This document shows positions 33,666 through 42,433 of a DNA stretch of 64,000 bases, one piece after another (the first letter of the stretch is position 1; each line of letters starts with the position of its first letter). The stretch lies in assembly GCA_030141605.1 (NCBI GenBank), contig JAQGDQ010000362.1, forward strand, positions 62,001 through 126,000, given 5' to 3'. The notes beneath the pieces are model-generated. The model was not told the origin of the DNA. It saw only the letters and a list, made by a program, of their open reading frames with translations, and searched no databases. This DNA comes from Tubiluchus corallicola (lineage: Eukaryota > Priapulida > Priapulimorpha > Priapulimorphida > Tubiluchidae). The position numbers and the translations under genes are program-made.

Positions 33666-33829
33666 GAGCAATGGGAGTGAAGAAGATATGTTGTATAGGA
33701 GCTGGGCATGTTGGATTGCCAACTTGTGCCGTAATTGCTGACCGCTGTCCTGATCTCACTGTCACTGTTATTGTTAATAAAGAATCGCTCGTTCCTGAAT
33801 CCAAATCTTCGGTTTTCGCAACTACAGAA
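33666..33829 (+). CDS. ugdh: UGDH-family exon 1 (first coding exon, residues 1-53)
   Basis: The acceptor tttctgtacag ends at 33665 and the exon reads gagcaATGGG, so a 5'UTR exon probably lies upstream. ATG 33671 is chosen because it follows the acceptor, has a good context (A at -3, G at +4) and puts the dinucleotide fold right at the N terminus as in the family. The frame is also open upstream to an ATG at 33605, but that would read through the acceptor. The exon encodes the first beta-alpha-beta unit. The acid that grips the NAD ribose in the family (VTVVDVNES in human) is replaced: here it reads VTVIVNKES. The PIYEPGL signature is eroded to ATTEPGL across the junction. The donor is gtaagt at 33830. 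Confidence 0.9.
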
Positions 33830-39800: not shown

Positions 39801-42433
39801 AATAATTGACATTTCGCCCCTGTAACAACACGAAATAGAAAATTGCACAAATGAATTTGGTATTCCATGTCCGTTGAATTTAGTTCTTATTAAAAAAACA
39901 GCGTTGTTTAATTATGCAATAATTTAGTAGTTTCTATGTGGAAGGTTGCCTAAATATTTTATAGAATGATACAATTCATAATTTTAGGCATCTAATGCGT
40001 TTCTGGCACAAAGAATTGCGAGTGTCAATGCCATGTCAGCTGTTTGTGAAGCAACTGGAGCTGACATTCATGAAGTAGCCAATGCTGTGGGGACTGATTC
40101 CAGGATTGGTCAGCAATTCTTGCATGTTGGTCCAGGTTTTGGAGGGAATTCTTTCAAGAAAGATCTTTTGTGTTTGGTGTACCTGTCCGAGTCATTGGGA
40201 TTGCATATTGTGGCAAGCTATTGGCAATCAGTACGTGAACTAAATAAAGTTGATCTGTGATTTTTTGTTAATTATGAAGTTAAATGGATCTTCCGTTCTT
40301 GTGAACAGAACCTGATAGCAATAATTATAGTGATGATATTATGATGATGCTGACGGGACGAAATGGTGAATTACTGGTAACGAAGCTATAGCGAATTGGT
40401 GATGTTGTTGCTGGTGTTGCTGTACTGTTTACTGTAGCAACTGCTGCTGCTAAGAGTAATAATAATAATTACGATGATGATGAACGTGATGATGATGATG
40501 ACGATGACGACGACGATGATAGTGATAATAATAATGACGATGACGACGACGACAACGACGACGAAGACCACTAATTAAAAGCAGTCCATGTCTTCTCTGC
40601 TAGGCAGTAGAAACAATACTTGCAAGCGGCGAAAAGAGCCCTGTTATTTTATGATAAAAATTGTAAAATCAATAATTATCCAGTAGACTGAGAAAACGCT
40701 CTTTAGCATACATGGCTTCTACAGTCTAAACAAGCAACCAAAAAAAGTCGCACATATATGCAGACAATAGATAGGTGCACAGGCAGACCAACATACTGCA
40801 AACAAACAAACTTATCGTTATTTTTCGCTCGCGCAAATACTGATTTTTGTTATATATTATGTATTATGCATGAACTATATATATATATATATATATATAT
40901 ATATATATATATATATACTTATATATATATATATGCATGCCTAGTTTTTAAGTTCTTGTTATATTTCACAGATTCTAGATGTAAATGACTTCCAAAACGA
41001 AAGATTCAGCAAGAAGATTTTGAAAACTTTATTTAACACTGTCACAAATAAATGTATCGCAGTTTTTGGTTTTGCATATAAAAAGAACACTAAGGATACA
41101 AGGTAAGAATACACTGCTTCTTTAATCAGTGTTTGTTAATTGTGCAGCCATTGTATGCTCAATAACGTATAAAAACGCACTGAAAAAAATGAGGTAAAAA
41201 TAAACATTTTTATGTGCTGATGACGCTGCTTTATTAAATTTCAGTGAATCTCCAAGTATACCAATATGCAAGCAGTTATTAGAGGAAGGTGCTGTGCTAA
41301 ACATTTATGATCCACAAGTCGAAGAGGAACAAATATTAAAAGATATTGGCGAAAATACAAAAGCGAAATCAGGTGGACATATAAATTCAACTCAGTCAAC
41401 ACCGCTGGATTTACTGCACTATAGGCCTATATTTTGTGACTTGTGCACAGAATTATTTTGTGTCTTTTTGCTTGTTGTTATAATTTATTTTAAAATTTAC
41501 AGACATTTATATTTTTCCCTTTTCTTTACTTGTAGACAAAATTAACGTAGCAGTGAAGAAGTGTCCATATTCGGCGGTCCAAAATGCCCATGCAATAGTA
41601 GTTTGTACAGAATGGGATGAATTTTTGGTAAGTACGCTTCGGAGGTATTGTGCACAATAAGTATTTTGAAGCTATATTGGTGTGAGTCCACAAATCTGTT
41701 TAGCGTTACATTGATTCTGAATGTATTTTGGCTAAACCTCATCTTTATCCCAAAACCAGTGTGAACAATATTATCGGAAAAATGTCATACTATCGATTGA
41801 AATATTTATAAAAACAAATAATAATGCTACGATTGTAAATGTTTAAATTTTAATTCGGGATTTGAATGTGAAAGTCTTGGTAGACAAAAGACTTTTATCG
41901 TTTATATCGACAGAAAGGCAACTTGCAAGACAACGTTAACTATGTATAGACTGCTGTAAAGCTAAAATCCATACTTCTATATATTTGCGTTCTGTTTCTC
42001 TTTTTGAAAACTATAGTTGGCTTCGTTTTGGTCTCCATTTGGGACTTAACTAGTCCGGAATTAGTCGGGATTCGATGTATAGCGCGCCTAAATAATTACC
42101 AAGTTCAGTTATGACTAAATTCGGAATTTATACGCATACAATGCAGTTTCAAAGGCGGATAAGGTTGATATGTTATTATTTATCAATTATTACTTACTAT
42201 ATAAAAACTCATTTAAAAAGTAAGATCGTGGTTTATGAGCTATTCTGTTTATTTTTTCCTAGGAATTGGATTATCAACTTATTTATGAAAGTATGCTAAA
42301 ACCTGCATTCTTATTTGATGGTCGTTCATATCTGGATCACAAAGAACTGAAGAAAATCGGATTCCAGGTAGAATCAATTGGGAAAAGGTTAAACAGGTCA
42401 TCCTCCCTAAATAGAATGCATGCCTACAATTAA
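33671..42433 (+). CDS. ugdh: UDP-glucose 6-dehydrogenase family protein, nine coding exons, active-site residues substituted
   Basis: Join of 33671-33829, 37073-37210, 37526-37693, 38223-38420, 39988-40230, 40972-41102, 41245-41372, 41536-41627 and 42263-42433 gives 475 codons and a stop; human UGDH is about 494 aa. All introns are GT-AG, and phases run 0,0,0,0,0,2,1,0. UGDH oxidises UDP-glucose to UDP-glucuronate with 2 NAD+ in the cytosol, feeding glycosaminoglycan synthesis and glucuronidation. Visible signatures are the Rossmann loop GAGHVGLPT (10-18), [19 protein letters not shown] with T131, [25 protein letters not shown] (271-280), GFAYKK and CTEWDEF. The 220-346 stretch aligns with human numbering without net shift. 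Retained are T131, E165, N224, R260, D280, K339 and the R442 equivalent. Changed are D36 to V35, E161 to D, K220 to R, K267 to H, C276 to S and R346 to S. The family call is secure; UGDH activity is doubtful. An upstream 5'UTR exon is likely. Confidence 0.93.
34141..35950 (-). mobile_element. Degenerate L2/CR1-type LINE fragment, antisense in intron 1 of the UGDH-family gene
   Basis: Read on the minus strand, fragments follow the order of a non-LTR retrotransposon ORF2. First is a linker with [12 protein letters not shown] text (about 35.85 kb), then [14 protein letters not shown] and [12 protein letters not shown] (about 35.45 kb, the pre-RT motif). [10 protein letters not shown] and [12 protein letters not shown] follow (about 35.25 kb), then [14 protein letters not shown] and LVAVQNAV-like text (34.9-35.1 kb). 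The C-terminal end [20 protein letters not shown] runs to a stop at 34580. Stops, frameshifts and deletions are frequent, and the RT palm with its catalytic aspartates is missing. A short 3' region follows, ending GCTCGTAAAATAAATT and running into (TTA)n, so the element looks 3'-intact but dead. Confidence 0.8.
34161..34260. repeat. (AAT)n microsatellite, probably the LINE's 3' tail
   Basis: About 100 bases of uninterrupted AAT. On the minus strand it follows directly after a sequence typical of LINE 3' ends, so it is best read as an expanded tail of the element rather than an independent microsatellite. Confidence 0.9.
37073..37210 (+). CDS. ugdh: UGDH-family exon 2 (residues 54-99)
   Basis: Acceptor gtttttcag, donor gtacct, 46 codons, phase 0 on both sides. 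It begins [10 protein letters not shown], continues [11 protein letters not shown] and ends [15 protein letters not shown]. This matches the family's N-terminal NAD domain, where human UGDH has FISVNTPTKTYG. The SVNTPT loop is changed to SVDIPT. Confidence 0.92.
37526..37693 (+). CDS. ugdh: UGDH-family exon 3 (residues 100-155)
   Basis: Acceptor tattttacag, donor gtataa, 56 codons, phase 0. It starts [19 protein letters not shown] and includes [12 protein letters not shown], carrying the conserved Thr-131 equivalent that contacts NAD in the family. It is two residues longer than human in the loop before GDK, which balances the shorter N terminus. Confidence 0.92.
38223..38420 (+). CDS. ugdh: UGDH-family exon 4 (residues 156-221)
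   Basis: Acceptor ttgttgacag, donor gttagt, 66 codons, phase 0. It reads [12 protein letters not shown], then [14 protein letters not shown], and ends [10 protein letters not shown]. The human NPEFLAEGT segment supplies Glu-161 and Glu-165; here the first is Asp and the second is kept. The human SELSKL lysine (Lys-220), which acts in catalysis and substrate binding, is arginine (AGG), immediately before the splice donor. Confidence 0.92.
39651..39775. repeat. Imperfect nested foldback in intron 4 of the UGDH-family gene
   Basis: Outer arms TGATGGTAC/GTACCATCA, middle GTCCGT/ACGGAC and inner CATATCAGC/GCTGATATG pair in order. It lies about 210 bases before the acceptor of exon 5. Probably a decayed MITE. 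It is followed by a G10 run and TTTCGCCCC, itself complementary to GGGGCGAAA. Confidence 0.45.
39988..40230 (+). CDS. ugdh: UGDH-family exon 5, catalytic-cysteine exon with Ser at position 276
   Basis: Acceptor cataattttag, donor gtacgt, 81 codons, phase 0. It begins [19 protein letters not shown], the central dimerisation helix of the family. The active-site loop reads [16 protein letters not shown] where human UGDH has FLKASVGFGGSCFQKD. The nucleophilic cysteine that forms the thiohemiacetal/thioester is therefore a serine (codon TCT), and the substrate-contacting lysine is histidine. Arg-260 and Asp-280 equivalents remain. Reading past the donor reaches a stop within 30 bases, which supports the splice at 40230. 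Confidence 0.93.
40440..40565. repeat. (GAT/GAC)n tract in intron 5 of the UGDH-family gene
   Basis: Triplet-rich, imperfect. The minus-strand Val/Ile-rich frame is an artefact. Confidence 0.85.
40876..40934. repeat. (AT)n microsatellite near the exon 6 acceptor
   Basis: Two runs separated by ctt. The tract ends about 38 bases before exon 6 of the UGDH-family gene. Confidence 0.9.
40972..41102 (+). CDS. ugdh: UGDH-family exon 6
   Basis: Acceptor atatttcacag just after an (AT)n tract, donor gtaaga; phase 0 in, phase 2 out. It encodes [17 protein letters not shown], then [23 protein letters not shown], the start of the UDP-binding domain. Lys-339 of human is retained. The codon split by the next intron is AG|T, giving Ser where human has Arg-346 in the DTRES motif. 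Confidence 0.9.
41245..41372 (+). CDS. ugdh: UGDH-family exon 7
   Basis: Acceptor aaatttcag, donor g|gtggac; phase 2 in, phase 1 out. It encodes [17 protein letters not shown] and [16 protein letters not shown], matching the C-terminal UDP-binding Rossmann-like domain of the family. The donor is weaker than the others in the gene. It is chosen because it restores the frame of exon 8 and gives a near-family length (about two residues short of human in this loop). Confidence 0.85.
41536..41627 (+). CDS. ugdh: UGDH-family exon 8
   Basis: Acceptor ctttacttgtag, donor gtaagt; phase 1 in, phase 0 out. It encodes [17 protein letters not shown] followed by [12 protein letters not shown], the family's conserved VICTEWDMF segment. 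Confidence 0.9.
42263..42433 (+). CDS. ugdh: UGDH-family exon 9 (last coding exon)
   Basis: Acceptor ttttttcctag; [20 protein letters not shown], then RSYLD and [11 protein letters not shown], and TAA at 42431. The arginine equivalent to human Arg-442 (which contacts the UDP-sugar) is kept, while the following Arg is Ser. The tail after IGKR is only 13 residues ([12 protein letters not shown] region), shorter than the roughly 30-residue flexible tail of vertebrate UGDH. Confidence 0.9.

Follow-up and report, generated by a model that had tools for sequence, protein, structure and literature searches.

A candidate pseudoenzyme of the UDP-glucose 6-dehydrogenase family in the priapulid Tubiluchus corallicola

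Gene structure and family membership

The DNA analysed, referred to below as the window, is a stretch of 64,000 nucleotides from Tubiluchus corallicola (contig JAQGDQ010000362.1, positions 62,001 to 126,000 of the forward strand), and all coordinates are those of the window. At 33671-42433 (+) it holds a gene resembling UDP-glucose 6-dehydrogenase (UGDH), whose product keeps the three domains of that enzyme, lacks its catalytic cysteine and several of its NAD contacts, and is probably a pseudoenzyme. Nine coding exons are separated by eight GT-AG introns with the frame kept throughout, and 1428 nt encode 475 amino acids and a stop codon. The in-frame exons and GT-AG borders, already set out in a preliminary description of this DNA, were verified at 8/8 introns. 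An acceptor-like sequence, TTTTCTGTACAG, was seen at 33654-33665 (+), immediately upstream of GAGCAATGG, and AATAAATAAA, a possible polyadenylation signal (AATAAA), at 42616-42625 (+), ~185 nt 3' of the stop; together these would fit an ordinary gene with an intron in its 5' untranslated region and a polyadenylation site.

The predicted protein belongs to the UDP-glucose/GDP-mannose dehydrogenase superfamily, all three UDPG_MGDP_dh domains exceeding their Pfam cut-offs (PF03721, 151 bits; PF00984, 100.6 bits; PF03720, 101.5 bits). The best PDB matches were chains named UDP-glucose 6-dehydrogenase (E ~3e-173, query residues 3-463), and among them 2Q3E and 5VR8 are human UGDH (PMC3184952, PMC11713868). 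When the window was searched by tblastn with four UGDH proteins, this gene was the sole UGDH-like locus, the next match having E 0.038. The first codon of coding exon 6 (40972-41102, +) is number 303, a position at which the human UGDH gene has an exon border too (PMC12493151); because this border is shared, the intron points to a gene copied as DNA, not as a retrocopy of a processed transcript.

In the protein search, the 8000 candidates sharing most words with the query were scored and the best 120 were listed. These consisted of one close relative, P0001, and 119 others with 52-59% identity to the window protein. The 119 are the sequences most similar to the query, near-copies included, and do not sample animals evenly; a few of them are odd models, among them P0002 with a duplicated stretch and P0004 with a gap at position 220. 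Distant relatives lacking the cysteine may exist below the best 120 of the 8000.

Lost and retained residues

Residue states were read on an alignment to 3TDK, which we take to be human UGDH, and its positions were used as human numbering. The substitutions D36V, E161D, K220R, K267H, C276S and R346S, reported in the preliminary description, were all found on this alignment, and T131, E165, N224, R260, D280, K339 and R442, reported there as kept, are indeed present both in the window protein and in P0001. One of the six does not bear the weight first placed on it. K267H was considered as a sign of decay, and position 267 is Lys in just 45/119 listed relatives and Gln in 67/119, so that 74/119 have no Lys there; the change was therefore rejected as evidence of decay, Lys-267 not being conserved across the family.

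The losses begin in coding exon 1 (33671-33829, +), which carries the ATG and the Rossmann start GAGHVG together with Y14H, G17L, D36V, R41L and W45S, all common to P0001. The window protein also has N46K and P51A, which with W45S lie in a stretch linked to cofactor binding, A44, P51 and R41 having been so linked (PMC12493151). In exon 2 (37073-37210, +) N90D and T91I turn the VNTPT loop into VDIPT; exon 3 (37526-37693, +) retains R102 and T131 and carries K129R and V134L; and exon 4 (38223-38420, +) retains E165 and carries E161D and K220R. The central, dimer-forming domain is represented by exon 5 (39988-40230, +), where N224, R260 and D280 are retained and S275N, C276S and Q278K are found. 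T325 and K339 are retained in exon 6. Codon 346 straddles intron 6 (AG|T), its last base being the first of exon 7 (41245-41372, +), and encodes Ser in place of Arg; P0001 has Ser here too. Exon 8 (41536-41627, +) is followed by exon 9 (42263-42433, +, stop included), which belongs to the UDP-sugar domain and retains the FDGR motif with R442.

These positions are otherwise nearly constant. The canonical residue was present at D36, E161, C276 and R346 in 119/119 of the other listed matches and at K220 in 118/119, the remaining one (P0004) having its gap there. Losses beyond those described earlier were Y14H, G17L, N90D and T91I (canonical in 119/119), R41L (canonical in 117/119), K129R (119/119), Q278K (118/119) and S275N (at least 98.5%). 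Taking D36, R41, N90, T91, E161, K220, C276 and R346 as eight key residues, 116/119 matches keep all of them and 3/119 depart at one, by R41K in two cases and by the gap at 220 in the third.

Read against what a functional UGDH (EC 1.1.1.22) has, the nucleophile Cys276 of the GFGGSCFQKD motif is Ser in the window protein and in P0001 and Cys in the 119 others listed, and Asp36, Arg41 and Arg346 are Val, Leu and Ser in both. R41 and R346 hold the NAD phosphate or coordinate NAD directly (PMC12493151). The changes of Glu161 to Asp and of Lys220 to Arg, again in both proteins, are conservative swaps. Presumably D36, the acid that ends strand 2, and T91 are further NAD contacts. On the other side, Thr131, Glu165, Asn224 and Asp280 are present in both sequences, as are Arg260, Lys339 and Arg442 on the UDP-sugar side; G271-F272-G273 is retained, and so are most of the residues to which published work assigns a part in forming dimers or hexamers (R102, R135, A222, S233, T244, R260, T325 and K339). 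In human UGDH, the C276S mutant accumulates a covalent adduct, mutants of K220 are strongly though not totally impaired, and R260 of one subunit extends into the sugar site of its partner (PMC3184952).

A second sequence with the same substitutions

P0001 is a protein of 471 amino acids from a separate contig of 2060 nt and is 93% identical to the window protein end to end. It has every listed substitution, including V36, L41, D90, I91, D161, R220, S276 and S346, and it was the only one of the 120 listed sequences to join the clade of the window protein, the other 119 being at most 59% identical. A search with residues 1-60 returned P0001 alone (of 2 candidates) and no further family member. 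The P0001 protein runs uninterrupted across 8/8 of the exon junctions of the window gene, with one 2-residue gap shortly past junction 7. By eye, the donor of exon 7 (41372-41373, CAG|GTGGAC) looked the weakest of the eight; P0001 is nonetheless continuous across that junction.

Only ~640 nt of the P0001 contig lie outside coding sequence, against a gene span of 8.8 kb in the window, and for this reason P0001 is most simply a spliced transcript of a related species; alternatively it could come from a copy with no introns or very short ones, or be a recent paralogue. The gene is thus probably expressed. Sequencing error, or decay private to the window, is unlikely, and an assembly error is made unlikely by the identical changes on a separate contig. 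The loss of the catalytic cysteine and of NAD contacts within an intact frame, as first described, is real and common to a sequence diverged by 7%.

Extent and distribution of the divergence

The alignment with the 119 other listed matches gave 472 compared columns, of which 168 were at least 98.5% invariant and are called near-invariant. At these sites the pair formed by the window protein and P0001 kept 135, shared changes at 28 and deviated at 5 more in one or both members. When each of the other listed matches was left out in turn, it broke at most 4 near-invariant columns (median 0), as against the 28 shared by the pair. The shared changes were distributed over the domains as 19/78 in the NAD domain, 7/51 in the central dimer domain and 2/37 in the UDP-sugar domain (Fisher test of NAD against UDP, p 0.018), the two in the UDP-sugar domain being F338Y and the NAD contact R346S. 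Stated most cleanly, divergence is greatest in the cofactor half of the protein and smallest in the UDP half.

Constraint acting on the pair was assessed from the 34 differences between the window protein and P0001 at 472 compared positions, apart from the 2-residue gap. The differing positions are variable in the family, with a mean canonical entropy of 1.69 against 0.90, and 0/20000 random draws were as high; 5/168 near-invariant sites differ, compared with 29/304 elsewhere (one-sided p 0.005). By domain (NAD/central/UDP) the differences fall as 0.53/0.09/0.38, within the 5-95% range of canonical pairs, whose means are 0.47/0.07/0.46 for 177 listed pairs at 88-96% identity that overlap and are not mutually independent. 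Judged on these two sequences, present-day constraint looks like that on a folded, dimerising UGDH.

In a neutral simulation run to an equal count of amino-acid differences, with indels excluded, 18% of 500 runs were free of stops, so that for the period after the pair split an open frame says little by itself. If indels are taken to occur at 0.1-0.15 per substitution, the chance of escaping frameshifts over that period was ~0.02-0.003. A stronger case than the open frames since the split is made by the long stem, which measured 1.08 and 1.03 changes per site from a midpoint root towards the pair and is about ten times as long as the window protein and P0001 are apart. Marks of a pseudogene were absent: there is neither stop nor frameshift, 8/8 introns are GT-AG, and the differences lie at variable sites. 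Selection for function as a protein is suggested, within these two sequences, by the existence of P0001, the pattern of differences and the open frames.

Placement among animals

In the trees the pair stands on a long stem, and a careful tree of 45 rows joined it to chelicerates without support (62/0). Approximately unbiased (AU) tests of its placement gave p 0.35 with a "myriapod-like" group and 0.40 with "malacostraca", in which the springtail P0037 had been included; with deuterostomes, molluscs and annelids p was 0.076, 0.031 and 0.028, respectively. The group labels were taken from source names or tree position and assigned after the first tree had been seen, and insects and branchiopods were outside the tests. 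Molluscs and annelids are mildly disfavoured by these values, and arthropods are allowed. A tally of shared rare residues and inspection of the C-terminus gave no decision on placement.

Surroundings of the gene

The window is rich in repeats and, where scanned, has few recognisable genes. A Pfam scan of 20 of the 81 filtered open frames gave one sub-threshold match, and six-frame scans of 18001-32999 and 49001-63999 gave no Pfam matches, with the limit that split exons can be missed. That they can escape was seen in a control on two plus frames of 34002-48999, where PF00984 passed its cut-off by a wide margin and PF03721 fell short of its own; positions 1-18000 and 33000-34001, together with all minus frames of 34002-48999 and its third plus frame, were outside the whole-frame scans. 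There were no Rfam or tRNA matches in the window, the tRNA scan having been run on bacterial settings.

Two open stretches, at 63162-63998 (+) and 34909-35267 (-), resemble by eye the C-terminal part of a non-LTR reverse transcriptase; the latter sits in intron 1 of the UGDH-like gene, and within the former 63639-63998 has 47 listed relatives that are 34-45% identical, one with PF00078. A stretch of ~0.8 kb is duplicated in the same orientation at 52738-53551 and 57714-58527 (96-99% alike, 4976 bp apart), and both copies contain similar short open frames. Very long microsatellites of ACA, TAC, TAA, CT and CA units, up to ~125 units, lie at 3293-3659, 13093-13466, 27740-27869, 34160-34259 and 52378-52738. 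Tandem repeats were found at 16661-16766 (two perfect copies of 53 bp) and 2370-2608 (3.5 copies of 69 bp).

Interpretation

On balance, the gene is read as a fixed, probably expressed and catalytically dead paralogue of animal UGDH, which may sense UDP-sugars or tune the functioning UGDH. The parts of this reading do not stand equally firm. The protein fits the definition of a pseudoenzyme, a homologue of an enzyme without the residues needed for catalysis, and that assignment is the surest of them. Both NAD-dependent oxidations have very probably been lost, the nucleophile being gone, K220 and E161 altered and the NAD contacts R41 and R346 (with D36 and T91, as we take them to be) changed. 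Binding of UDP-sugars is expected with rather less assurance, and a role as subunit or regulator of canonical UGDH is a tentative proposal.

Under the favoured reading, the protein would fold and dimerise via its central domain and would still bind UDP-sugars, the NAD-dependent four-electron oxidation being no longer possible. Its most likely mode of action would then be to co-assemble with ordinary UGDH or form an oligomer of its own, and through occupancy of its non-turnover pocket by UDP-sugars to adjust the activity of ordinary UGDH or signal how much UDP-sugar is present. In its most specific form, which we hold to be possible and somewhat doubtful, it would be a dedicated non-catalytic UGDH subunit, occupied by UDP-sugar and free of NAD, that enters the dimer or hexamer and sets the output of UDP-glucuronate. 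In a mixed dimer the Arg260 of the paralogue would complete the partner's active site. UGDH itself is regulated through UDP-xylose feedback and a hexamer switch of an unusual kind (PMC11713868). Defective UGDH can act on the normal protein, as stated for the human variants R141C and E416D, which affected the stability of wild-type protein (PMC12493151).

Several observations weigh against this account. A canonical UGDH elsewhere in the same genome is an assumption of the partner role. E161D and K220R are mild changes, and with T131, N224, D280 and E165 still present a weak or altered enzyme is conceivable. Two positions linked to contacts between dimers are altered (N292G, where Asn is found in 116/119 listed matches, and R317K, where Arg is found in only 65/119). 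In lists of NAD-contact and UDP-glucose-contact sites, the NAD contacts were only modestly enriched in shared changes (7/21 against 21/147, p 0.037) and were not enriched inside the NAD domain (4/16 against 15/62, p 0.59); the divergence is therefore domain-wide and not confined to contacts. The UDP-glucose contacts were not spared either, 3/14 near-invariant sites being changed against 25/154 (p 0.42), and they carry the commonest residue at 11/21.

The main rival is an oxidoreductase that still functions in altered form, having shifted its preference from NAD to NADP and/or acting as a UDP-sugar oxidase that takes the first step only or a new substrate, with Ser in place of Cys. GxGxxG, T131, E165, N224 and D280 are retained, the window protein and P0001 agree in most of their new residues, as residues with a job to do should, and strand 2 has lost its terminal acid with a Lys nearby (VNKES in the window protein, VTKES in P0001). 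Such a loss with a nearby Lys resembles some NADP sites. Against a functioning enzyme, R41 and R346 have gone as well, no extra basic residues for a 2'-phosphate were seen by eye at the site, and human C276S accumulates the adduct noted above (PMC3184952), so that this explanation is considered improbable. An enzyme stalled at the aldehyde stage, which the preliminary description had offered as an option, is judged less likely because the first oxidation too requires NAD+ and the NAD contacts are changed in both sequences. About as improbable as the altered oxidoreductase is a non-catalytic protein outside UGDH biology, its fold kept to serve as a scaffold or binding protein in some unrelated process, with no contact to UDP-sugars or UGDH: the very long stem, the changes across the whole NAD domain and the low retention of the listed UDP-glucose contacts speak for it, while the retention of R260, K339, R442 and G271-F272-G273 and the UDP-sugar domain being the least changed speak against it.

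A decaying pseudogene still open by chance would account for the loss of several catalytic residues and for the finding of a single relative, and, given the stop-free neutral runs, a frame that has stayed open after P0001 diverged is weak evidence to the contrary. Set against these are 475 open codons and eight GT-AG introns, a second sequence likewise open with the same states, differences that avoid conserved sites, the small chance of escaping frameshifts and the length of the stem, which together leave decay very improbable. Least credible of all is that the odd residues are artefacts of sequencing, assembly or gene modelling; the original exon model had been drawn up by eye and R346S falls on a split codon, but the odd residues all recur in P0001, which comes from another contig and runs across the eight junctions with its 2-residue gap past junction 7. 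A young pseudogene and sequencing error had been named at the outset as the explanations that could overturn the first account, and both are spoken against by a 7%-diverged sequence that shares the states and by pair differences that are UGDH-like in constraint.

Relation to known systems and significance

Like animal UGDH (human 2Q3E and 5VR8), the window protein has three Pfam domains, the codon-303 intron border, R260, K339 and R442 and most of the named dimer residues; unlike it, the protein is without Cys276, R41 and R346, presumably also without the NAD contacts D36 and T91, and is changed at 28 near-invariant sites. The folds of prozyme and of deoxyhypusine synthase are unrelated to that of UGDH. 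In the trypanosomatid prozyme of AdoMetDC (PMC6221367) and the dead paralogue of deoxyhypusine synthase (PMC3663545), a duplicate of an oligomeric enzyme was retained after catalysis was lost, and both activate a working partner; the simplest role of the window protein, that of a non-catalytic, UDP-sugar-binding subunit or regulator of UGDH, would be analogous to theirs without common descent. ALDH16A1 is a pseudoenzyme (PMC10650815) that, like the window protein, has the fold of an NAD(P)-dependent, cysteine-using dehydrogenase with catalytic residues lost; it belongs to another superfamily and reportedly has no catalytic residue left, whereas the window protein retains T131, N224 and D280.

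According to one account, UGDH is an essential and unique gene, conserved across humans, mice, zebrafish and frogs (PMC12493151). No pseudoenzyme of the UDP-sugar dehydrogenase family was found in the literature searched: some of the papers listed concerned bacterial proteins, as judged by title and the start of the abstract, and none of the others treated a UGDH paralogue by its title. If the assignment is true, the family would have its first described pseudoenzyme here, within that literature; the enzyme family is known and what is new is a pseudoenzyme-like paralogue, not a new category of protein. The paralogue would be a natural separation-of-function mutant, apparently stripped of catalysis and NAD use but with its UDP-sugar side and dimer core preserved, and it could reveal roles of the UDP-sugar side and of the oligomer without the chemistry, as well as whether animals tune glycosaminoglycan precursors by the mixing of subunits. 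If the protein proved active instead, it would challenge the indispensability of the cysteine.

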